This document shows, one piece after another, positions 38,758 to 51,261 of a stretch of 64,000 bases of DNA. A program made the translations under genes and the position numbers. The DNA lies in contig JADZAF010000057.1 of NCBI GenBank assembly GCA_020852755.1, positions 1 through 64,000 of the forward strand, written 5' to 3'. This DNA is from Bryobacterales bacterium. Lineage in GTDB: Bacteria > Acidobacteriota > Terriglobia > Bryobacterales > Bryobacteraceae. The first letter of the stretch is position 1. Each line of letters starts with the position of its first letter. The notes beneath the pieces were generated by a model. The model saw only the letters and a program-made list of their open reading frames with translations, was not told where the DNA came from and did no database searches.

Positions 38758-38823
38758 AAACCGGACCGCGGGTTGAATCGCCGCCCCACGCGAAGCCTTG
38801 TAATGTAGAGAGACGAGGTGTCG

Positions 38824-40086
38824 ATGATTACACGAAGAGCCTGGCTGGGAATGGCGGCCGGCGCCGCGCTGGCGCAGAACGCCAAGCCGGTCCGGATCGG
38901 CATGGTGGGAGTGGGAAACCGCGGCACGTCACTGCTGCGCAACCTGCTCGATCTGCCCGGGGTCGAGATTCCGGCCATTTGCGATATCAACGAAGCCAAC
39001 CTGCAGCGCGGCCAGGGCATCGTCGAGAAAGCCGGGCACAAGCGCCCCGAGGGTTACTGGAACGGGCTGGAGGATTTCCGGCGGCTGGCGGCGCGCGACG
39101 ACCTGGACGCGGTGCTCACCGCCACGCCCTGGGAGTGGCACGCACCAGTGGCGATCGCGGCCATGCGGGCGGGAAAGTACGCGGCCACCGAAGTGCCGGC
39201 CGCCATCACCCTGGAGGAATGCTGGGACCTGGTCAACACTTCCGAGAAGACCGGCATGCCCTGCATGATCCTGGAGAACGTCTGCTACTACCGCAACGTG
39301 CTCATGATTCTGAACATGATCCGGCAGGGCGTCTTCGGCGAGATCGTGCACTGCGAGGGCGGCTACCAGCACCACATCCGCAAGATCCGGCCGGACGGCG
39401 AGGTTTCCTGGCGCGGCATGCATTCCGTGAAGCGCAACGCCAACCTCTACCCCACCCACCCCATCGGCCCCATCGCCTGGTGGACCAACATCAACCGGGG
39501 CGACCGCTTCACCCACCTCACCTCCATGAGCAGCAAATCGCTGGGCATCAACCGCCAGGCGGCTGAGCGGGCCGGTCCCGGCCACCCCAACGCCAAGCGG
39601 CGCTACGCGCTCGGCGACGTCAACACGACGCTGATCCGGACCGAGAACGGGGTCACCGTCACCCTGACTCACGACACCCAGTCGCCCCGCCCGTACGATC
39701 TCGGATTCAAGCTCCAGGGCACCCTCGGCATCTATTCCGGAACCCTGGAGAAGATCTTCATCCACGACGCCGCGAGCGGTCCCGAACAGTGGCGAGACAT
39801 GGGGCCCTACTACGAGAAGTACGAGCACCCGGTCTGGAAGAGGCTGGGGCAGACCGCTACGAAGTACGGGCACTTCGGAGGCGACTACCTGGAGCTGCTG
39901 GAATTCGTCGCCGCGGTGCGGAACCGGACCCAAACGCCGATCGATGTGTACGACTCGGCCGTGTGGAGCGCCATCACGCCGCTGACCGAGCAGTCCGTGG
40001 CCGGAGGGAGCGCGCCGGTCGATTTTCCGGACTTCACCCGCGGCAAGTGGAAGACCGCCAAGCCGGTGGAAGTGACCGGCGGGTAG
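38824..40086 (+). CDS. GH109-like Gfo/Idh/MocA oxidoreductase, Tat-exported
   Basis: A 420-residue protein with Tat signal ITRRAWLGMAAGAALAQ and a Rossmann motif GMVGVGNRG (about 27-35). Several stretches match the GH109 alpha-N-acetylgalactosaminidase family: TATPWEWHAPVAIAAMRAGK, EVPAAITLEECW, NLYPTHPIGPIAWW and NINRGDRF. GH109 enzymes hydrolyse the glycoside through NAD-dependent oxidation at C3 and elimination. The substrate here may differ. The ATG at 38824 is preferred over GTG at 38818 for its spacing from GAGG. It is followed after 15 bases by a phosphoesterase gene. Confidence 0.84.
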   Translation: MITRRAWLGMAAGAALAQNAKPVRIGMVGVGNRGTSLLRNLLDLPGVEIPAICDINEANLQRGQGIVEKAGHKRPEGYWNGLEDFRRLAARDDLDAVLTATPWEWHAPVAIAAMRAGKYAATEVPAAITLEECWDLVNTSEKTGMPCMILENVCYYRNVLMILNMIRQGVFGEIVHCEGGYQHHIRKIRPDGEVSWRGMHSVKRNANLYPTHPIGPIAWWTNINRGDRFTHLTSMSSKSLGINRQAAERAGPGHPNAKRRYALGDVNTTLIRTENGVTVTLTHDTQSPRPYDLGFKLQGTLGIYSGTLEKIFIHDAASGPEQWRDMGPYYEKYEHPVWKRLGQTATKYGHFGGDYLELLEFVAAVRNRTQTPIDVYDSAVWSAITPLTEQSVAGGSAPVDFPDFTRGKWKTAKPVEVTGG

Positions 40087-40101
40087 ACGAGAGCAACTGC
40101 C

Positions 40102-41259
40102 ATGCGAATGATACCGATCCTGTTCCTGTGGCTGCCGGCGCTGGTCATGCTGCCGGCTGCCCAGCTTGGCCCCTACATCACCCATGACACCCGGCCGGTG
40201 ATCACCAACGGGCCTTACCTGCTCGCTCCCGCGGAAGATTCGGCCACCATCGTCTGGATGACCGATACACCCTGCCACTCCAAGGTGGTCTATGAAGACA
40301 GCGGCGGCAGAGTGAGGGAAGCCGAGAACGGCGAGCACGGATTGCTGCCCGTCGGGCTCCGGCACGTGGTCCGGCTGCGCGGCCTCCAACCCGGCGCTAC
40401 CTATCGCTACCGGGTGGTCTCCACACGGGTCGTGAAGATGAAATCCTACTGGCCGGAAAAAGGCCTTTCGGTCGAGAGCCGGCTGGCCTCCTTCACCACC
40501 TTCGACCGGCGCAAGCCGGCTTGCTCTTTCAGCCTGATCACGGACACCCACGAGGACGTGAAACGCATTGCCTCGCTGGTCCAGCGGATCGACTGGGGCG
40601 GGACCGACTTTCTGGTGCACCTGGGGGATGCCTTTCACGGCATCGAAAGCGAGGAGGCGATCTGGAACCTGTTCCTGGAGCCGCTGTCCAACGCCCTGGC
40701 GCAAACCCGGCCGCTGCTTTTCGTACGGGGCAATCACGAGGCCCGCGGCGCGGCCGCCCGTCTCCTGGCGGACTATGTGCCGTTTCCGGAAGGACGTTTC
40801 TACTATGCGCGCGATCACGGCCCGGTCCATTTCGTGACCCTGGACACCGGGGAGGACAAGGACGACGAGACCAACGTCTATGCCGGATTGAACCGGTTCA
40901 AGGCCTACCGCGAGGAAGAACTTGCATGGTTCCGCGAGCACGCCCGCACCACCCGGCGTATGGCCGAGGCGCCGTTCCGGGTCTTACTGATGCACAACCC
41001 CGGTTGGGGATGGGTGGATCAACAGAACGGCCGCTGGACGGAAGCAGCCAATGAGGCCGGGATCGACCTGGCCATATCGGGCCACACCCACCGCTTCGCG
41101 CACTGGGAACCGGGCCGGAGAGGGAACCGCTATCACCAGTTGATCATCGGGCCGGACGAGGTCGCCCGGGTGGATGCGAGCCAGACGGAACTCCAGGTGC
41201 GGGTTACGGGCAAGGACGGGGAAACAGTGGCATCCTTCAGCGTTCCGCGCCGCAAGTAG
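40102..41259 (+). CDS. exported metallophosphoesterase (purple-acid-phosphatase-like)
   Basis: A 385-residue protein with a signal peptide (about 1-20), an N-terminal fibronectin-like beta domain (about 32-135, NGPYLLAPAEDSATIVWMTD) and a calcineurin-like core. Metal ligands: D148 and H150 in TDTH, D176 in HLGDAFHG, N and H of GNHE, H in MHNPGWG and GHTH near the C-terminus. The architecture resembles purple acid phosphatases, but TDTH replaces the tyrosine-bearing motif, so it is more likely a dinuclear phosphoesterase. It should release phosphate or split a phosphodiester outside the cytoplasm. Confidence 0.84.
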   Translation: MRMIPILFLWLPALVMLPAAQLGPYITHDTRPVITNGPYLLAPAEDSATIVWMTDTPCHSKVVYEDSGGRVREAENGEHGLLPVGLRHVVRLRGLQPGATYRYRVVSTRVVKMKSYWPEKGLSVESRLASFTTFDRRKPACSFSLITDTHEDVKRIASLVQRIDWGGTDFLVHLGDAFHGIESEEAIWNLFLEPLSNALAQTRPLLFVRGNHEARGAAARLLADYVPFPEGRFYYARDHGPVHFVTLDTGEDKDDETNVYAGLNRFKAYREEELAWFREHARTTRRMAEAPFRVLLMHNPGWGWVDQQNGRWTEAANEAGIDLAISGHTHRFAHWEPGRRGNRYHQLIIGPDEVARVDASQTELQVRVTGKDGETVASFSVPRRK

Positions 41260-42704: not shown

Positions 42705-43022
42705 ATGAAGCGGATCTGTTTCCTGTTGCGCGTGAAGCCGGACCGGCTGGCGGAGTATAAGGAGCGGCACAAAGCGGTCTGGCCGGAGATGCAGGAGGCC
42801 CTCCGGGAGACCGGCTGGCACAATTACTCACTCTTCCTGCGCGACGACGGCCTGCTGGTGGGGTACGTGGAAACCCCCGACTTCCAGGCGGCGCTGGACG
42901 GCATGGCCAGGAAGGAAGTCAACGAGCGCTGGCAGAAGCAGATGGCCGAGTTTTTCGACCTGGGCGGCGAACATGCCGACCGGGCCATGAGCCCGCTCGA
43001 GGAAGTGTTCCACCTCGATTAG
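42705..43022 (+). CDS. rhaM: L-rhamnose mutarotase
   Basis: A 105-residue RhaM (DUF718) that interconverts alpha- and beta-L-rhamnose. The residues of the E. coli active site are conserved at the same numbers: Y18, H22, Y41 and W76. It is a cytosolic dimer. Its stop codon overlaps the stop of the convergent RhaT-like gene (TTAG), so the two genes share their 3' ends. With the transporter it indicates use of L-rhamnose, though isomerase, kinase and aldolase genes are not in the window. Confidence 0.92.
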   Translation: MKRICFLLRVKPDRLAEYKERHKAVWPEMQEALRETGWHNYSLFLRDDGLLVGYVETPDFQAALDGMARKEVNERWQKQMAEFFDLGGEHADRAMSPLEEVFHLD

Positions 43023-44014
43023 CGGGCGCCCAGCGAGATCACGGCCAGAGCGGCGATCATTACGAGGATGCCGGCGGCCAGGTAGCGGGTGGCCTTGCGG
43101 CCCGCGGTTTTCCACTCGCCCGTCAGGATTCCCCAGAAGTTGGCCACCAGCACCTGAGTGGTCATGAATAGCGGCCAGCCCACCGAGGTGCCCAGCGGCC
43201 CCATCCGGGTGGCGCCCAGGCCGTAGAAGAACATGCCGAACATCCACAGGAAGCCCATTACGGCCGTCAGCATCACATTCCGCGCGGTGAAGCCCGCCTT
43301 CTCCGTTTCCGGGCTCTTGCCCATCAGGTAGAGACAGTAGCCGGCGTTGATCAGGAAGCCCGAGGAGATGGCGATGGCGAAGATGGCGATCGAGGCCGTG
43401 GCCGGGTTGGCGCCCGTTCGCGCGGCCTCGGCGGAGATCGGGTCTCCGAAGGCCAGGGCGAAATTCATCATCGGCGAGGTGACCCCGGAGGCGATGCAGA
43501 TCGCCAGACCCCGCCCGAAACTGCCGGCCGGGCGGCGGGCGGCCGACTCCTTCAGCGCGCCGGCCCGGGCGCACAGGGCGATGCCGGCGATCACGATCAC
43601 CAGGCCGAGCAGCAGCACGGCGCCGCGCGAGGAAGCCATCTCGCCGGGGTGCAGCACGGCCAGCGGGACCAGCGAGCCCACCGCGGCAGTCAGCGAGATG
43701 ATCACGGCCACGCCGAGAGCCATGCCGACGCGGGCGATGCCGAGGCCGAACAGCACCGAGCCGATCCCCCAGCCCATCCCGAACAGGGCCGCCAGGGCGA
43801 GGGGGGCGGAACCCACCCGCGCGTACACGCCGCCCGCATCGGGAATCGCGAAGGAAACGATCAGCCAGGGAAACACGATCATGCCGGCGATCGAATAGAA
43901 CAGCCAGCCCATGGCCCACGACCAGCCGCGCAGGTATTTCTGGGGCAGCGGGAAGGTGCCCTGCATGGCGCCGCCCCCCATGGTCAGGAACAGGCCCATC
44001 CAGCTAAAGTTCAT
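43019..44014 (-). CDS. RhaT-like sugar/proton symporter (1)
   Basis: A 331-residue membrane protein with ten helices, of the RhaT family: GTFPLPQKYLRGWSWAMGWL (about 22-41) with the loop typical of RhaT, and GWGIGSVLFGLGIARVGMALG. E. coli RhaT imports L-rhamnose or L-lyxose with protons. Position next to rhaM makes rhamnose the best guess, although the family is broad in Acidobacteria. The ATG at 44014 has GGAGG 5 bases upstream. A second, related transporter lies in the operon at 47963. Confidence 0.85.
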   Translation of the reverse strand: MNFSWMGLFLTMGGGAMQGTFPLPQKYLRGWSWAMGWLFYSIAGMIVFPWLIVSFAIPDAGGVYARVGSAPLALAALFGMGWGIGSVLFGLGIARVGMALGVAVIISLTAAVGSLVPLAVLHPGEMASSRGAVLLLGLVIVIAGIALCARAGALKESAARRPAGSFGRGLAICIASGVTSPMMNFALAFGDPISAEAARTGANPATASIAIFAIAISSGFLINAGYCLYLMGKSPETEKAGFTARNVMLTAVMGFLWMFGMFFYGLGATRMGPLGTSVGWPLFMTTQVLVANFWGILTGEWKTAGRKATRYLAAGILVMIAALAVISLGAR

Positions 44015-44061
44015 GCGGTCCTCCGGACTCCGGTCCCCCATTTCACCACACTCGGATCAAA

Positions 44062-44078
44062 GGGGACAGAGGGAATTA
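44062..44078. repeat. partial copy of the left-edge REP-like element
   Basis: GGGGACAGAGGGAATTA, matching the outer part of the palindrome at 1-44. It has no partner arm here, so it is a half or degenerate copy. It lies between the rhaT-like gene and the apiose-type operon promoter. Confidence 0.5.
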
Positions 44079-44095
44079 CCGGGGTGTGCATCAGC

Positions 44096-44124
44096 TTGAC
44101 GGGGCGACGCCCGGAGTGTACTAT
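44096..44124 (+). promoter_or_regulatory. sigma70-type promoter of the apiose-type operon
   Basis: TTGACG (44096-44101), 17 bp, TACTAT (44119-44124); transcription would start near 44131, right before the GGAGG (44134-44138) of the first gene. A small dyad GGGC-GAC-GCCC (44102-44112) lies in the spacer and may be an operator. Confidence 0.65.
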
Positions 44125-44146
44125 CGCCGTCTCGGAGGAAAGAACC

Positions 44147-44989
44147 TTGACTACCATCGCCCTGCTGGGCGCGGGCGGCAAGATGGGCTGCCGCTGCACC
44201 GACAATCTGAAGAAATCCGACTACGGGGTCCGCCACGTGGAGATCAGCCCGGGCGGCATCGCGGCGCTGGCCGCTCGCGGCATCGCGCCCGTACCCATTG
44301 AAGAAGCGGTGCCGGGAGCCGATGCCGTCATCCTGGCCGTGCCCGACGTCGCTATCGGGAAAGTCTCCCACCAGATCGCGCCTCTGCTCCGGCCCGGCGC
44401 GCTGGTTATCGTCCTCGACGCCGCCGCGCCCTATGCGGGCGAACTGCCGGACCGGACCGACATCGGCTACTTCGTCACGCACCCCTGCCATCCCCCGGTC
44501 TTCAACGACGAGACCGATCCGGAAGCCCGCCGCGACTTCTTCGGAGGCATCAAGGCCCGCCAGCACATCGTGTGCGCGCTGATGCAGGGCCCCGAGGAGG
44601 CCTACGTCCTGGGCGAACAGATTGCCCGCACCATCTTCGCACCCGTCATGCGGGCCCACCGCTGCACCATGGAGCAGATCGCCATCCTGGAGCCCGCCCT
44701 TTCGGAGACCGTGGCCGCCACCTGCGTCACCGTGATCCGGGAGGCCATGGAGGAAGCCATCCGCCGCGGGGTGCCGCGCGAGGCGGCCCGCGACTTCCTG
44801 CTCGGGCATATTCACATCGAGCTGGCCCTGGTCTTCGAGGAGCTGACCACGGCGCGCTTCTCCGACGGCGCGATGAAGGCGATCGAAGAAGCCAAGGCGG
44901 TCCTCTTCCAGCCGGACTGGAAGAAGGTTTTCGAGCCCGAAGAGATCCGCAAGAGCGTCCGCAAGATCACCGCGGCGGCCCGAGCCTGA
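44147..44989 (+). CDS. apnO: D-apionate oxidoisomerase-like dehydrogenase
   Basis: A 280-residue protein with a Rossmann motif GAGGKMG (8-14) and a helical C-terminal domain of the phosphogluconate-dehydrogenase-like type. It resembles ApnO, which oxidises and rearranges D-apionate to 3-oxo-isoapionate with NAD. Family-like parts: FVTHPCHPPVFNDET (99-113), CALMQGPEEAYVLGE (123-137) and EPALSETVAATC (162-173). The start is TTG at 44147, with GGAGG 8 bases upstream; no ATG is available. The call rests on remembered family sequence plus the apsD- and apnL-like neighbours; a generic phosphogluconate-dehydrogenase-like enzyme is the fallback. Confidence 0.75.
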   Translation: MTTIALLGAGGKMGCRCTDNLKKSDYGVRHVEISPGGIAALAARGIAPVPIEEAVPGADAVILAVPDVAIGKVSHQIAPLLRPGALVIVLDAAAPYAGELPDRTDIGYFVTHPCHPPVFNDETDPEARRDFFGGIKARQHIVCALMQGPEEAYVLGEQIARTIFAPVMRAHRCTMEQIAILEPALSETVAATCVTVIREAMEEAIRRGVPREAARDFLLGHIHIELALVFEELTTARFSDGAMKAIEEAKAVLFQPDWKKVFEPEEIRKSVRKITAAARA

Positions 44990-45003
44990 CGTCCGGAGCG
45001 ACT

Positions 45004-46026
45004 ATGAGCAACCTGCGATTTGCCGCCTTCGGGGCGGGATTCTGGGCGCGCTTCCAATTGGCCGGCTGGCGCGAAGCGGGCGGCGCGGACTGCGTGGCTA
45101 TCTACAACCGGACGAGAAGCAAGGCGGAGTCCCTGGCCCGGGAGTTCTCCATCCCCGCGGTTTACGACAATGCGGAAGAACTCCTGGACAGGGAGCGGCT
45201 GGACTTCGTCGACGTCATCACCGATGTGGACACCCACGCGCGCTTCGTTCACCTGGCCGCGGCGCACAAGCTGCCTGTGATCTGCCAGAAGCCCCTGGCG
45301 CCCAGCCTGGCGGAGGCCGAGGGCATGCTGCGGGCCTGCCGCGAGTCCGGAGTTCCCCTGCTGGTGAACGAAAACTGGCGCTGGCAGACTCCCATACGCG
45401 AGCTGAAGAGGGCGCTGGAGGCGGGCGTCATCGGGCGGCCGTTCCGCGCCCGCATCGACATGATCTCCGGCTTCCCGGTGTTCCGGAACCAGCCCTTCCT
45501 GCGCGAACTGAAGCAGTTCATCCTGACCGACCTGGGCAGCCACACCCTGGACGTCGCCCGCTTCCTGATGGGAGAGCCCGACCGGCTCTACTGCCAGACC
45601 CACCGGGTGCATTCCGGCATCCAGGGCGAGGACGTGGCCACCATCATGCTGAGCGTTCCCGGGGCCACGGTGCTGGTGGAGATGGCCTACGCGGAAAACT
45701 ATCTGGAACGCGACCGCTTCCCGGAAACCTTCATCTTCGTGGAAGGCGACCGCGGCTCGGCGGAACTGGCGCCCGATTTCTGGATCCGGGTGACCACCAG
45801 GGAAGGCACGCATGCCCGGCGCTGCCCGCCGCCCCGCTACCCGTGGGCCGACCCCGCTTACGACGTGGTGCATTCCAGCATCGTGCCCTGCCAGGCCAAC
45901 CTGCTGGCGGCGCTCAAGGGCGAGCAAGCGGCGGAAACCAGCGGCGAGGACAACCTGAAAACCGTGCGCCTGGTCTTTTCCTCCTATGAATCCGCGGCCG
46001 CGGGCCGGGCGGTCGATCTGCGATGA
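45004..46026 (+). CDS. apsD: D-apiose dehydrogenase-like Gfo/Idh/MocA enzyme
   Basis: A 340-residue NAD(P)-dependent oxidoreductase: Rossmann GAGFWAR (10-16), the catalytic Lys in CQKPLAPS (K96), NENWRWQTPIRELKRAL and the conserved DLGSHTLDVARFL (about 176-188) holding the family Asp/His. It resembles D-apiose dehydrogenase ApsD, which oxidises D-apiose to apionolactone. Gfo/Idh/MocA enzymes are diverse, so specificity rests mainly on the operon. It starts 14 bases after the apnO-like stop and overlaps the apnL-like gene by ATGA. Confidence 0.75.
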   Translation: MSNLRFAAFGAGFWARFQLAGWREAGGADCVAIYNRTRSKAESLAREFSIPAVYDNAEELLDRERLDFVDVITDVDTHARFVHLAAAHKLPVICQKPLAPSLAEAEGMLRACRESGVPLLVNENWRWQTPIRELKRALEAGVIGRPFRARIDMISGFPVFRNQPFLRELKQFILTDLGSHTLDVARFLMGEPDRLYCQTHRVHSGIQGEDVATIMLSVPGATVLVEMAYAENYLERDRFPETFIFVEGDRGSAELAPDFWIRVTTREGTHARRCPPPRYPWADPAYDVVHSSIVPCQANLLAALKGEQAAETSGEDNLKTVRLVFSSYESAAAGRAVDLR

Positions 46027-47966
46027 CCCGCAACGTCCTCTACTACGGCAGGGAGGAGCCGCTCCCGGAGAAGATCCCGCTGCGCGCCGGGCCGCTCTCG
46101 CTGATTTTTGAACAGGGCCTGCTGCGCTACGTGCGCCTCGGCGATAGCGAAATCCTGCGCGCCGTCTATGCCGCCGTGCGCGATGCCAACTGGGGCACCC
46201 TGCCGAACCGCATCTCCAATCTCTCCGTCCAGCGCGGCGCCGGCACGTTCCAGATTCGCTACGACGTGGAGAACCGGCAGGGCGGCATCGACTTCCGCTG
46301 GGCGGGAAGCATCACGGGCGACGAGCGGGGCACGGTCGTTTTCCGGATGAAGGGCAAGGCGCACTCGACGTTCCGCAAGAACCGCATCGGTCTCTGCGTG
46401 CTGCACCCCATGGATTGCGCGGGCCGGCCCTGCACGGTCGAGAAGACCGGCGGCAGCCGGCAGAGCGGCGCATTCCCGCTGTACATCTCACCCCATCAGC
46501 CGTTCTTCGATATCGCCGCGATCACCCATGAAGTCGCGCCCGGGATTGCCGCCGAGGTGCGCTTCTCGGGCGAGGTCTTCGAAATGGAGGACCAGCGCAA
46601 CTGGACCGACGCCTCCTTCAAGACCTACTGCACCCCGCTGAGCCTGCCTTTCCCCGCGGAAATCAAGGCCGGCACGGAGATCGACCAGTCGGTGACGCTC
46701 ACCCTGCGCGGCACGGTTCCGGAAGTTCCGGCGCGCGCGGCGGGCGGCGCTGTCAGCATCGGATTCTCCGATCTCGGCGCGCGCCCGCTGCCGGCGATCG
46801 GCCTCGGCATAGCCGGCCATGGCGGCGCGCCTGGAGAAAAAGAGGTCGAGCGCCTCAAGGCATTGCACCTCTCCCATCTGCGCGCCGATCTGCGGCTCTC
46901 CGATATCAGCACCGTGGAACGCGCCTGCGCGGAATCCGAAGCGCTGGGCCTTCCGCTCGAGGCGGCTCTCTTCCTCAGCGGCGCGGCGCCCGATGAACTG
47001 CGGCGCCTGGCCGAACACCTCGCCCGGCGCAAACCCCGCATTGCCCGCTGGCTGGTGTTTCACGAAGCGGAGAAATCCACCCGGCCGGAATGGGTTGCGC
47101 TGGCCCGCGAGCACCTGTCCGGCCACGACCGCGCCGCGGCCTTTGTTTCCGGCACCAACGCTTACTTCACGGAACTGAACCGGGAACGGCCTGAAACCGC
47201 GCTTTTGGACGGCGCTTGTTTCTCCATCAATCCGCAGGTGCACGCCTTTGACAACGACACGCTGGTAGAGAACCTGGCCGCGCAGGCCGCGGCGGTGGCT
47301 TCGGCGCACCAGTTCCTGGGCGCGCTTCCCGTCGTGATCTCGCCGGTCACCTTGACGCCGCGCTTCAACCCGTCCGCGACCGGCCCGGACGCCGCGCCCC
47401 CGCCCGGCGACTTGCCGTCCCAGGTGGATCCCCGGCAGATGTCGCTCTTCGGAGCGGGCTGGACGGCCGGCAGCCTCAAGCACCTGGCTGAAGCCGGCGT
47501 GGCAAGCGTCACCTACTATGAGACCTCCGGCTGGCACGGTGTCATGGAGACCGGGACCGGTTCTGCTCTCCCGCAACGTTTTCAATCCATTCCCGGCGGC
47601 GTGTTTCCTCTCTATCACGTACTGGCTGATGCAGGGGAGTTCCGCGGTGGGGAAGTTCTTCCTTCCCGCTCCAGCCATCCGTTGCAGGCGGAAGTTCTCG
47701 TCCTGCGCCGTGAGGGCCATCTGCGCATTCTGGTCGCCAGCTTTCAGCCGGAAGTGCAGTCCGTCCGGTTGAGCGCCGCGGCGCTTGGGCGGAGTGTGCG
47801 GCTCCGGACTCTGGACGAAACCAGCGCCGCGCGGGCCATGGCGGCGCCGGAGCAGTTCCGGCAGGAGCCGGGACAGCTCATCGAAATCACCGGCCAGGAG
47901 CTGGAACTGAGCCTGCGGCCGTATGCGGTGGCGCGGATCGATACATCACTGAAGGAGAGTCCATGA
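46023..47966 (+). CDS. apnL: D-apionate lactonase-like protein
   Basis: A 647-residue protein without signal or membrane segment. Three parts are apparent: an N-terminal beta domain (about 1-230; LRAVYAAVRDANWGT, NRIGLCVLHPMD, YISPHQPFFDI), a TIM-barrel-like centre (about 240-520; GACFSINPQVHAFD and SVTYYETSGWHGV) and a C-terminal beta domain. The layout and the HPMD/SPHQPF signatures correspond to ApnL, which opens apionolactone to D-apionate. This is the most distinctive member of the cluster. ATGA overlaps join it to both neighbours. Confidence 0.8.
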   Translation: MTRNVLYYGREEPLPEKIPLRAGPLSLIFEQGLLRYVRLGDSEILRAVYAAVRDANWGTLPNRISNLSVQRGAGTFQIRYDVENRQGGIDFRWAGSITGDERGTVVFRMKGKAHSTFRKNRIGLCVLHPMDCAGRPCTVEKTGGSRQSGAFPLYISPHQPFFDIAAITHEVAPGIAAEVRFSGEVFEMEDQRNWTDASFKTYCTPLSLPFPAEIKAGTEIDQSVTLTLRGTVPEVPARAAGGAVSIGFSDLGARPLPAIGLGIAGHGGAPGEKEVERLKALHLSHLRADLRLSDISTVERACAESEALGLPLEAALFLSGAAPDELRRLAEHLARRKPRIARWLVFHEAEKSTRPEWVALAREHLSGHDRAAAFVSGTNAYFTELNRERPETALLDGACFSINPQVHAFDNDTLVENLAAQAAAVASAHQFLGALPVVISPVTLTPRFNPSATGPDAAPPPGDLPSQVDPRQMSLFGAGWTAGSLKHLAEAGVASVTYYETSGWHGVMETGTGSALPQRFQSIPGGVFPLYHVLADAGEFRGGEVLPSRSSHPLQAEVLVLRREGHLRILVASFQPEVQSVRLSAAALGRSVRLRTLDETSAARAMAAPEQFRQEPGQLIEITGQELELSLRPYAVARIDTSLKESP

Positions 47967-48985
47967 ACGGGAACCTGGGCTGGGGCATCGCCGGAGTGCT
48001 GCTGGGCGGTTTGCTCAACGGCAGCTTCGTGGCGCCCATGAAGCGGCTGCACGCCTGGAAATGGGAGAACAGCTGGTTCGTCTATTCGGTTTCGGGTCTG
48101 CTCCTCGTGCCCTGGCTGGTGGCCCTGGCGGTGGTGCCGGAACTGGGCGCGATCTTCGTTCAGACCTCCGGGGGCACGCTGCTGAAGGTGCTGCTGTTCG
48201 GATTCGGCTGGGGCGTTGGTTCGGTGCTGTTCGGCCTCGGGGTCAGCCGCATGGGACTCTCGGTCGGTTACGGCATCATCCTGGGATTGATCGCGCCCAT
48301 CGGCACCTTCCTGCCGCTGGTCGTGCTGCACCCGGAGCGCCTGTGGACGCGGCAGGGCCTTGCCCTGGTGATCGGGACGCTGATCGTGATCGGCGGCATC
48401 GTGTTGTGCGCGGCGGCCGGCGGCATCCGCGAGCGGGCGGTCAAGCCTGCTGCTGAAGGAGCCGCGCGGAGCGGGTATGGCACGGGGCTGCTGATTTGCA
48501 TTCTGGCCGGCATCTTCTCGCCGATGCTGAATTTCGCTTTCGTATTCGGCGAGGAGTTGCAGCAGCGGGCGCTGGCGGCGGGCGCCGGCACGGCCATGGC
48601 TTCGAATGCCATCTGGTCGCTGTGCCTGACGGCCGGTTTCATCGCCAATGCCGGCTACGCCGCCATCCTGCTGCGGCGGAACGGGACCTGGAGGCTTTTC
48701 TCGCCGGACAAGGCCCCGGCCGGGCACTGGATCGGCGGCAGTCTCATGGGCATCATCTGCTTCGCCAGCTTCATGACCTACGGTTCGGGCGCCACCGCTC
48801 TCGGCGATCTGGGCGGCATCGTGGGCTGGCCGCTGTTCATGGCCATGAGCCTGATCACCTCGAACCTGCTGGGCCTGCTGACGGGCGAATGGGCGGGCGC
48901 GCCGAAGAAGGCGTACCTGTATTCGCTGGCGGGCATCGGCCTGCTGATCGTGGCCATCACCATCATCTCGAGAGGCAACGCATGA
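47963..48985 (+). CDS. RhaT-like transporter (2), candidate apiose/apionate importer
   Basis: A 340-residue, ten-helix member of the RhaT/DMT group: GSFVAPMKRLHAWKWENSW (about 20-38), GWGVGSVLFGLGVSRMGLS and an ending close to the transporter at 43019 (GWPLFMAMSLITSNLLGLLTGEW against GWPLFMTTQVLVANFWGILTGEW, split here by natural variation). Being translationally coupled to the lactonase upstream and the TIM-barrel gene downstream (ATGA both sides), it should import the substrate of this pathway rather than rhamnose. Direct evidence for specificity is lacking. Confidence 0.84.
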   Translation: MNGNLGWGIAGVLLGGLLNGSFVAPMKRLHAWKWENSWFVYSVSGLLLVPWLVALAVVPELGAIFVQTSGGTLLKVLLFGFGWGVGSVLFGLGVSRMGLSVGYGIILGLIAPIGTFLPLVVLHPERLWTRQGLALVIGTLIVIGGIVLCAAAGGIRERAVKPAAEGAARSGYGTGLLICILAGIFSPMLNFAFVFGEELQQRALAAGAGTAMASNAIWSLCLTAGFIANAGYAAILLRRNGTWRLFSPDKAPAGHWIGGSLMGIICFASFMTYGSGATALGDLGGIVGWPLFMAMSLITSNLLGLLTGEWAGAPKKAYLYSLAGIGLLIVAITIISRGNA

Positions 48986-49794
48986 AGCTGGGCATTGGCG
49001 CCTACACCTACATGTGGGCCATCGGCCTTCCCGGGGCCGAGCCCGAGAGCCCGATGAGCTGGCGGGAGCTGTTCACGCAGGCGCGGGCGTTCGGGGTCCG
49101 CGTGGTGCAGTTCGGACCCAACCTGCCGCTGGAGAAACTTCCGGAAGCCGAACTGGACGCCCTCGCCCGGCAGGCGCGCGAGTGGAACCTGGAGATCGAG
49201 GCGGGCACGCGCGGCATCGACCCGGAGCCGCTGCGGCGTTCCATCGCCGTCGCCCGGCGCTGCGGCGCGACCCTGCTTCGCTCGGTGCCCGAGGTCGGCC
49301 GCGGGGAGATCCCTTCACCCGAAGCTTTCGTCGCCAGCGTCCGCTGCGTCCTGCCCGACCTGGAGGCAGCCGGGATGCGGCTCTCGCTCGAAAACACACG
49401 GATTCCCGCAGCGCAGCTCAGCCAGGCGATCGACGCGATCGGCAGTTCGCTGGTGGGCATCACTCTGGATACCGTCAACTCCCTGGCGATTCCCGAAGGG
49501 ACCGAGCAGGTGGCCCGCACCCTGGCCCGCCACACGTTCTGCCTGCACCTGAAGGACTTTGTGGTCTTCCGCGAGTGGCACATGGCGGGCTTTCGCGTGG
49601 AAGGCCGCCCGGCCGGGCAGGGACAGCTCAACGTGCCCTGGCTGCTCAGCCTGCTGAAGGCCGCCGGCCGCTCCCCGAACGCCATTCTGGAACTTTGGAC
49701 GCCGGAGCAGGCCACGCTCGCGGAAACCATCGCGCTCGAGCGGCGCTGGGCGGAAGAAAGCATTTCCTACCTGCGCCGCCACATTCCCGATTGA
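48982..49794 (+). CDS. xylose-isomerase-like TIM-barrel protein, candidate 3-oxo-isoapionate decarboxylase
   Basis: A 270-residue AP-endonuclease-2/sugar isomerase-type barrel. The expected metal ligands are E137 in LSLENTR, D163 in TLDTVNS, H189 in FCLHLKD and E237 in ILELWT. Members isomerise, epimerise or decarboxylate sugars and sugar acids. In published apiose pathways OiaC, of this fold, decarboxylates 3-oxo-isoapionate to L-erythrulose; the operon makes that the best candidate role, and a sugar isomerase is the alternative. ATGA overlap with the transporter gene. An erythrulose kinase is not in the window. Confidence 0.78.
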   Translation: MKLGIGAYTYMWAIGLPGAEPESPMSWRELFTQARAFGVRVVQFGPNLPLEKLPEAELDALARQAREWNLEIEAGTRGIDPEPLRRSIAVARRCGATLLRSVPEVGRGEIPSPEAFVASVRCVLPDLEAAGMRLSLENTRIPAAQLSQAIDAIGSSLVGITLDTVNSLAIPEGTEQVARTLARHTFCLHLKDFVVFREWHMAGFRVEGRPAGQGQLNVPWLLSLLKAAGRSPNAILELWTPEQATLAETIALERRWAEESISYLRRHIPD

Positions 49795-49857
49795 GCGCAA
49801 ACCCGCTTGTAACCGCGGCCGCGAAGTGGCAGTCTTGTCTGGGGAGGGAGAGCACTG

Positions 49858-51261
49858 ATGCGCAGGAGAGCTTTCATCCGATCGATGGCCGCGGCCCCCG
49901 CCGCCGGCCTGTTTCACTTCCCTTGCGGATTCGTCCCGCAAGCGCCGGCGCAGCCGCGCGGCGGGATGGCGCAGGCCGGTCCCTTCAGCCCGAGCGAGGG
50001 TGCAAACAATCCGTTCGGCGTGGCGCAGGGCGTACATCCCGGCAGAGTGGCGTGGGTCCGCGACACGAAAGCCACGCGCTGGGACGGCACGACCGGAAAA
50101 TGGTGGGAGGACGCCTACAGCGATCAGGCGGCAGCCGCCCGCATGATGTCCCGGGTTCTCAGGGATCTGACCGGCCGGAAAAACGACAAACAGGCCTGGG
50201 ACACCCTGTTCCGCCACTTCAATGAAACGCACCGGGCGGGAGGCTCCGGGTACCGTCCAGGGGAAAAGATCGCCGTCAAGATCAACTGCAATCAGGACCG
50301 CTCCGCCGAGTGGGGCGTTCCGCGGGCCGGCGGTCCTCCGGGCGGCTTTCGCGGCGGACCTCCCCGGCCGCCCTTGAACGGGCTGCCCAGCCCCCACGTC
50401 GTGGCGGCCCTGGTGAACCAGCTGATCCAGGCGGGGGGCGTGCGCGGCGAGGACATCCTGCTCTTCGAAGTCGCCCAGGGGCGCAACATCGGCCGGCCCA
50501 TCTATGAACGGATCCGGGCCAATTCCAATCCTCAGTTCCAGCAGGTCCGGTTCCTGGTCAACAACGACTACGGATTGGGCGGGCGGCTATCGCCGGAGCC
50601 CGACGAGTCCCACCCCATCCATTTCTCAAAGGCGGAAGTGCCGGTGGGCTACCTGCCGCGCCAGGTGACCGAGGCGAAGTACATGATCAACCTGGCCATC
50701 CTGCGGGCGCACGGGATGGCGGGCCTGACCCTGACCGGGAAGAATCATTTCGGATCGGTTCACTTTCCGAATGACGGCGGCTGGACTCCCAGGGTCCTGC
50801 ATCCCCAGGTGCTGCGGACTCAGGCCATGGGCTCCTACAACTGCCTGGTGGATTTGATGGGGCATCCGCACCTGGGAGGCAAGAGCATGCTCTATATGCT
50901 CGACGGGCTCTATGCGTCGGCGCATAACGAGGGCAACGTGATCCGCTTCGCCTCCCTGGGAGACACCTGGGCCGCCAGTCTGCTGGCCAGCCAGGATCCC
51001 GTGGCGATTGATTCGGTCGGGCTCGACATTCTGAGGAACGAGCCGCGCGCCACCGAAGTCCGGGGCAACGCCGACAACTATCTGCACGAAGCCGCGCAGG
51101 CCGCCCGGCCGCCCTCCGGCACGGTATACGATCCGGGCAAGACCGGCCGGTCGATCGCCAGTCTCGGCGTGCACGAACACTGGAACAACGCCGCCGACCG
51201 AAAGTACTCGCGCAACCTGGGGCGAAAAGAAGGCATAGAGCTGATCGCCGCGCTGGGGTAG
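49858..51261 (+). CDS. Tat-exported DUF362 protein
   Basis: A 467-residue protein with a Tat-type N-terminus (RRRAFIRSMAAAPAAG), a Gly/Pro-rich patch (about 160-180) and the DUF362 core: AVKINCNQD, SPHVVAALVNQLIQAGG, YMINLAILRAHGMAGLTLTGKNHFGSV (in two halves) and LASQDPVAIDSVGLDIL. DUF362 proteins are often fused to ferredoxins and have no established reaction; this one has no iron-sulfur motif. It lies 63 bp after the apiose-type operon, with its own GGGAGGGAG upstream, and may be a read-through member. Confidence 0.83.
   Translation: MRRRAFIRSMAAAPAAGLFHFPCGFVPQAPAQPRGGMAQAGPFSPSEGANNPFGVAQGVHPGRVAWVRDTKATRWDGTTGKWWEDAYSDQAAAARMMSRVLRDLTGRKNDKQAWDTLFRHFNETHRAGGSGYRPGEKIAVKINCNQDRSAEWGVPRAGGPPGGFRGGPPRPPLNGLPSPHVVAALVNQLIQAGGVRGEDILLFEVAQGRNIGRPIYERIRANSNPQFQQVRFLVNNDYGLGGRLSPEPDESHPIHFSKAEVPVGYLPRQVTEAKYMINLAILRAHGMAGLTLTGKNHFGSVHFPNDGGWTPRVLHPQVLRTQAMGSYNCLVDLMGHPHLGGKSMLYMLDGLYASAHNEGNVIRFASLGDTWAASLLASQDPVAIDSVGLDILRNEPRATEVRGNADNYLHEAAQAARPPSGTVYDPGKTGRSIASLGVHEHWNNAADRKYSRNLGRKEGIELIAALG

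Follow-up and report, generated by a model that had tools for sequence, protein, structure and literature searches.

Apiose is a branched plant sugar that cross-links rhamnogalacturonan II and forms part of many plant glycosides. An oxidative D-apiose pathway with an ApsD-ApnL-ApnO-OiaC branch was reportedly described by Carter et al. in 2018. The isomerase pathway, D-apiose degradation I (ApsI, a kinase and AptA/AptB), has been found in Pectobacterium and E. coli ST131 (PMC13001218), and apiose supports the growth of a Rhodobacteraceae isolate that has ApnL, ApsD, ApnO, OiaK and OiaX (PMC11747546). Titles and abstracts of the literature combining apiose and Acidobacteria gave no sign of an operon such as the one analysed here.

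The window, that is, the whole 64,000-nucleotide stretch of DNA under analysis, comes from contig 57 of the 7.44-Mb genome, rated 100% complete, of a soil-type acidobacterium. Reading of the sequence and the ORF list revealed a same-strand run of five genes (44147-49794, plus strand). In our judgement, this operon most probably equips the cell to take up D-apiose and to degrade it via the OiaC-terminated oxidative (non-isomerase) route, with activities and substrate predicted from gene families and context.

Operon layout and the ApnO-like and ApsD-like genes

Gene 1 (44147-44989) begins with a TTG codon, 7 nt downstream of the ribosome-binding site GGAGGA (44134-44139, plus strand), and is separated from gene 2 (45004-46026) by 14 bp. 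The other junctions are ATGA overlaps, located at 46023-46026 (genes 2/3), 47963-47966 (genes 3/4) and 48982-48985 (genes 4/5). The first-pass annotation had described five genes joined in this manner, and all four junctions proved exact to the base. It had also placed a promoter ahead of them. The hexamers TTGACG (44096-44101) and TACTAT (44119-44124) are present with the N17 spacer, but the search for sigma-70-like sites in 43000-50400 found 1 site against 0.7 ± 0.9 expected from shuffled sequence, no better than chance. The match was therefore dropped as evidence for the operon, and what speaks for 44096-44124 (plus strand) as its putative promoter is the position ahead of gene 1. A gene for a DUF362 protein (49858-51261) follows on the same strand 63 bp past the operon, and a shared transcript is possible. 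At 38818-41259, a gene for a GH109-like Gfo/Idh/MocA protein is followed by one for a purple-acid-phosphatase-type metallophosphoesterase.

The genes that we take to be ApsD and ApnO in the clusters discussed below were assigned from their place in the cluster and from the NCBIfam models for ApnL, OiaK and OiaX. The reference cluster of S. meliloti has an ApnL of 834 bits (NCBIfam cut-off, 750), together with genes for a Gfo/Idh/MocA protein and for an ABC transporter of the ribose type. Gene 1, the candidate D-apionate oxidoisomerase, has NAD-binding and PGDH_C domains (Pfam PF16896, 229 bits) and is close in sequence to the ApnO of this model-positive apiose cluster, sharing 64% identity over 276 aa with the gene in the ApnO position; it matches PDB 5t57 with 345 bits. 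Gene 2, the candidate D-apiose dehydrogenase, matches the GFO_IDH_MocA domain and is orthologous to the Gfo/Idh/MocA protein in the ApsD position of S. meliloti (41% over 340 aa). The PDB 5uhw family is the only strong PDB relative of gene 2 (277 bits), and 5uhw is also the closest solved relative of the S. meliloti protein (539 bits).

The core apsD-apnL-rhaT-oiaC was found in five other Bryobacteraceae genomes (L019, L022, L023, L024 and L168), where apnO comes after it. Since the core recurs in five genomes of the family, the arrangement is no chance product, and chance clustering of the five genes was ruled out. A further locus, L046, combines apnL-apsD-rhaT with apnO-oiaK-oiaX.

The ApnL-like protein and the substrate

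The sole NCBIfam match of gene 3 (46023-47966) was ApnL, NF049900, with 295 bits and an E-value of 9e-88 over model positions 3-593 of 595. The equivalog cut-off of this model is 750 bits, and the rhizobial ApnL of L012, L014 and L015 score 813-842 bits; because 295 bits is far under the cut-off, we call gene 3 ApnL-like and not a certified ApnL. Neither a Pfam family nor a PDB sequence matched it. It is homologous over its whole length to the ApnL-like superfamily, and 11 polar residues (R53, D54, R121, E189, D190, R192, N193, D196, K200, H407 and R471) are identical in 56 of the 56 aligned ApnL-like proteins, the rhizobial ones included. Homology of this kind suggests that gene 3 encodes a D-apionolactonase.

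The structural model of gene 3 (pLDDT 92.4) consists of an N-terminal beta sandwich and a clan-A glycosidase-like barrel. The barrel resembles GH79, GH51 and GH30 enzymes; for GH79 5bwi, 368 residues were aligned with a Z score of 27.5 and an rmsd of 3.5. Clan-A glycosidases normally carry two catalytic glutamates at strand ends. Despite the barrel match, the gene 3 family has no conserved Glu at the ends of beta 4 and beta 7 (strands numbered from DSSP, not by superposition). This makes a retaining clan-A mechanism improbable, and the candidate role of glycosidase was rejected. The missing strand-end glutamates are consistent with a non-glycosidase function for gene 3, and fold likeness by itself proves no function.

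ApnL-like genes were detected in 56 of 237 Bryobacteraceae genomes. Among the loci read, many ApnL-like genes belong to clusters without ApnO or ApsD; the wider ApnL-like family may thus act on other lactones. In nine clusters (L025, L028, L031, L039, L044, L071, L082, L094 and plasmid L013), the ApnL-like gene adjoins genes for a D-2-hydroxyacid dehydrogenase and an HpcH/HpaI aldolase. These clusters mostly lack ApnO, ApsD and OiaC, and possibly represent either another apionate route or a different lactone pathway. At L020, L035, L036, L062 and L160, ApnL-like genes are found near sulfatase genes without the apiose partner genes.

In about a dozen loci, L022 and L023 among them, genes of the apiosidase family occur close to ApnL (375 bits in L023). 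The genome of the window has four apiosidase-family genes above the cut-off. The best of the four proteins matches the solved structure named 'Apiosidase' (PDB 8t9w) with 493 bits and the entry pair 3kzs/5msy with 267 bits; this homologue is encoded on a different contig from the operon.

It is quite improbable, in our assessment, that the operon merely resembles an apiose operon, with the same enzyme families acting on some other sugar or lactone such as a branched or 3-substituted pentose. The 295 of 750 bits of gene 3 would fit such a substrate, as would the ApnL-like genes that stand apart from ApnO and ApsD, some beside the 2-hydroxyacid dehydrogenase and HpcH aldolase genes and others beside sulfatases. 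Against it stand the 64% identity of gene 1 to rhizobial ApnO, the joint occurrence of ApsD, ApnL, ApnO and OiaC in sister operons that have genes of the apiosidase family close by, and the apiosidase homologue in the same genome. Moreover, a check of whether the best hits belong to families with a different proven substrate left gene 3 with the ApnL model only and gene 1 nearest to ApnO-type proteins. Apiose as the substrate fits the gene structure, the family membership and homology, the conserved co-occurrence, the lack of OiaK and OiaX, the apiosidase homologue and the candidate downstream enzymes. What counts against apiose is the ApnL score far under the cut-off, the fact that the sister of gene 3, L045, is an orphan without ApnO or ApsD, and the location of the apiosidase gene on another contig. 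To these is added a second decarboxylase that seems redundant in clusters containing an OiaC-like gene besides OiaK and OiaX.

The decarboxylation step and transport

Gene 5 (48982-49794) encodes a xylose-isomerase-like TIM barrel (Pfam PF01261, AP_endonuc_2, 70 bits) with the metal quartet E137, D163, H189 and E237. The folds nearest to its model (pLDDT 94.8) were an isomerase and D-tagatose 3-epimerases (Z 25-27). It had no match in NCBIfam, a set in which we know of no OiaC model, and was 29% identical to the OiaC candidate of Pantoea, whose cluster comprises OiaC-like, ApnO, DhaK, a TPI-like protein and RpiB. When 369 proteobacterial genomes were searched for OiaC-like genes, only the starting genome was returned. 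Among the loci read, 15 besides the window have an OiaC-like gene, each together with an ApnO-like gene. Neither OiaK nor OiaX is present in the window's genome as assembled, which excludes the kinase/RuBisCO-like route there as far as the assembly goes. The ApnO-linked TIM barrel of gene 5 is therefore the candidate for decarboxylation.

As an alternative, gene 5 might be a D-apiose isomerase of the ApsI type or a tetrulose epimerase, providing a second metabolic entry. It shares 31-34% identity with plasmid TIM barrels encoded beside split transketolases and DhaK (L115-L119), a layout that matches D-apiose degradation I, versus 29% with the Pantoea candidate; its top fold matches are epimerases and isomerases, and OiaC-like genes also occur beside OiaK and OiaX. 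However, gene 5, 15 of the 15 other ApnO-linked copies and the Pantoea copy share R197 and L216, whereas each of the five AptAB/DhaK-type TIM barrels has P and A at these positions. AptA/AptB were found in none of the 15 ApnO-linked loci and, if gene 5 were taken away, the pathway of this genome would have no decarboxylation step. The two residues and the missing AptA/AptB disfavour an apiose isomerase, and we consider this alternative unlikely. The preferred reading, an OiaC-like 3-oxo-isoapionate decarboxylase, is a putative assignment based on context and these two diagnostic residues; at a guess, R197 binds the carboxylate.

In five loci (L049, L050, L059, L064 and L081), OiaK and OiaX accompany an OiaC-like TIM barrel, so that each cluster apparently has two routes of decarboxylation; a DUF6786 gene is located in between at L050, L059 and L064. 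Three of these OiaC-like copies form a branch of their own and may have a different activity.

Gene 4 (47963-48985) belongs to the RhaT family (PF06379, 97 bits against a Pfam gathering score of 27). It falls under the equivalog cut-offs of the NCBIfam RhaT (L-rhamnose/proton symporter) models, which range from 369 to 523; the best score was 251 against 369. The RhaT genes at the equivalent place in the five sister operons are 57-66% identical to it. Among the loci read, a linked RhaT gene was found only in Bryobacteraceae, and several other clusters have ABC genes. A second RhaT-family gene (43019-44041, minus strand; PF06379, 129 bits), 41% identical to gene 4, is divergent from the operon, and its membership in the system is uncertain. 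It occupies the place that a divergent GntR regulator has in three sister operons.

From its position, gene 4 likely imports apiose. A different cargo, such as rhamnose, apionate or an oligosaccharide product, with apiose entering via another system, is conceivable but somewhat doubtful. The RhaT family is known for rhamnose, a second gene of the family is divergent from the operon, and most other clusters have ABC genes; yet gene 4 lies inside the operon with overlapping codons, holds the equivalent place in five sister operons and scores under the RhaT equivalog cut-offs. The first-pass annotation regarded the RhaT-linked arrangement as not established, and we likewise encountered no mention of apiose together with RhaT in the literature searched.

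Taking gene 4 as the apiose importer, the pathway would proceed as follows. Imported D-apiose would be oxidized to D-apionolactone by ApsD (gene 2) with NAD, and ApnL (gene 3) would open the ring to yield D-apionate. ApnO (gene 1) would convert D-apionate to 3-oxo-isoapionate by oxidation and rearrangement, and the metal-dependent TIM barrel of gene 5 would decarboxylate the latter to L-erythrulose. From there, DhaK-type kinases and RpiB-type isomerases with genes outside the operon could lead on to erythrose 4-phosphate. The genome has three DhaK-type kinases (Dak1) and three RpiB, none of them linked to the operon, and the surroundings of the three DhaK genes showed no apiose-specific context. 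The chain from apiose to L-erythrulose had been proposed from the window alone and is supported by the gene families and the genome context. The five family calls behind it also survive, with gene 3 under the ApnL cut-off, gene 5 called on context and two residues, and the gene 4 substrate taken from position.

Ancestry and comparison with described systems

In the trees, the OiaC of the window and of the five sister operons form one clade (support 99), and the ApsD and RhaT of the window lie near the sister operons' copies, the ApsD clade with a support of only 76. The ApnO of the window shares a group (support 99) with L046, L057 and the rhizobial type, and the sister-operon ApnO forms a separate deep branch; a single group for the ApnO of the six operons is disfavoured (p-AU 0.015). 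The ApnL of the six operons do not form a single clade either (p-AU 9.6e-5), and that of the window groups with L045 (support 96), the orphan Bryobacteraceae copy. Since the sister operons' ApnL belong to more than one lineage, the ApnL test does not set the window apart. Judged from these trees, the operon is a mosaic, its ApnL and ApnO being of ancestry other than that of the sister operons, with replacement possible in either direction.

A broader proposal, evenly poised in our view between right and wrong, combines three elements: a RhaT-family symporter as the Bryobacteraceae apiose importer; an OiaC-type operon that evolves by in-place replacement of single genes (ApnL and ApnO exchanged, ApsD, RhaT and OiaC staying); and a large family of ApnL-like proteins acting on uncharted lactones. 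The survey points to the RhaT family as apiose carriers open to testing and, because there are more ApnL-like proteins than apiose clusters, additional lactone pathways probably exist. Going by named records, it extends the oxidative apiose pathway to Acidobacteriota, Chloroflexota, Planctomycetota, Armatimonadota, Gemmatimonadota, Thermomicrobiota and Bacteroidota, a range that goes past Proteobacteria, the group in the literature searched.

With D-apiose degradation I, the operon shares only the substrate; that route runs through an isomerase and transketolase, whereas the window and the ApnO-linked loci are without AptA/AptB. The Sinorhizobium/Shinella clusters (L012, L014 and L015) resemble it in ApnO (62-64% identity), ApsD (41%) and ApnL (32-33%) but have a ribose-type ABC transporter, and L014 and L015 have OiaK and OiaX in place of OiaC. 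The Bryobacteraceae sister operons share the core (ApsD, 65-72%; RhaT, 57-66%; OiaC, 45-60%); their ApnO, in contrast, is of another type (40-45%) and placed last, their ApnL belong to other lineages, and three have the divergent GntR gene. The pathway ascribed to Carter et al. agrees with the window in the four enzyme families and in the order in which these probably act. The window differs from it in an ApnL under the curated cut-off, in having no linked L-erythrulose kinase or isomerases, and in a RhaT-family carrier inside the operon of an acidobacterium. The enzymes are those of the known pathway, whereas the RhaT-type transporter and the patchwork origin are new as far as the literature searched shows.
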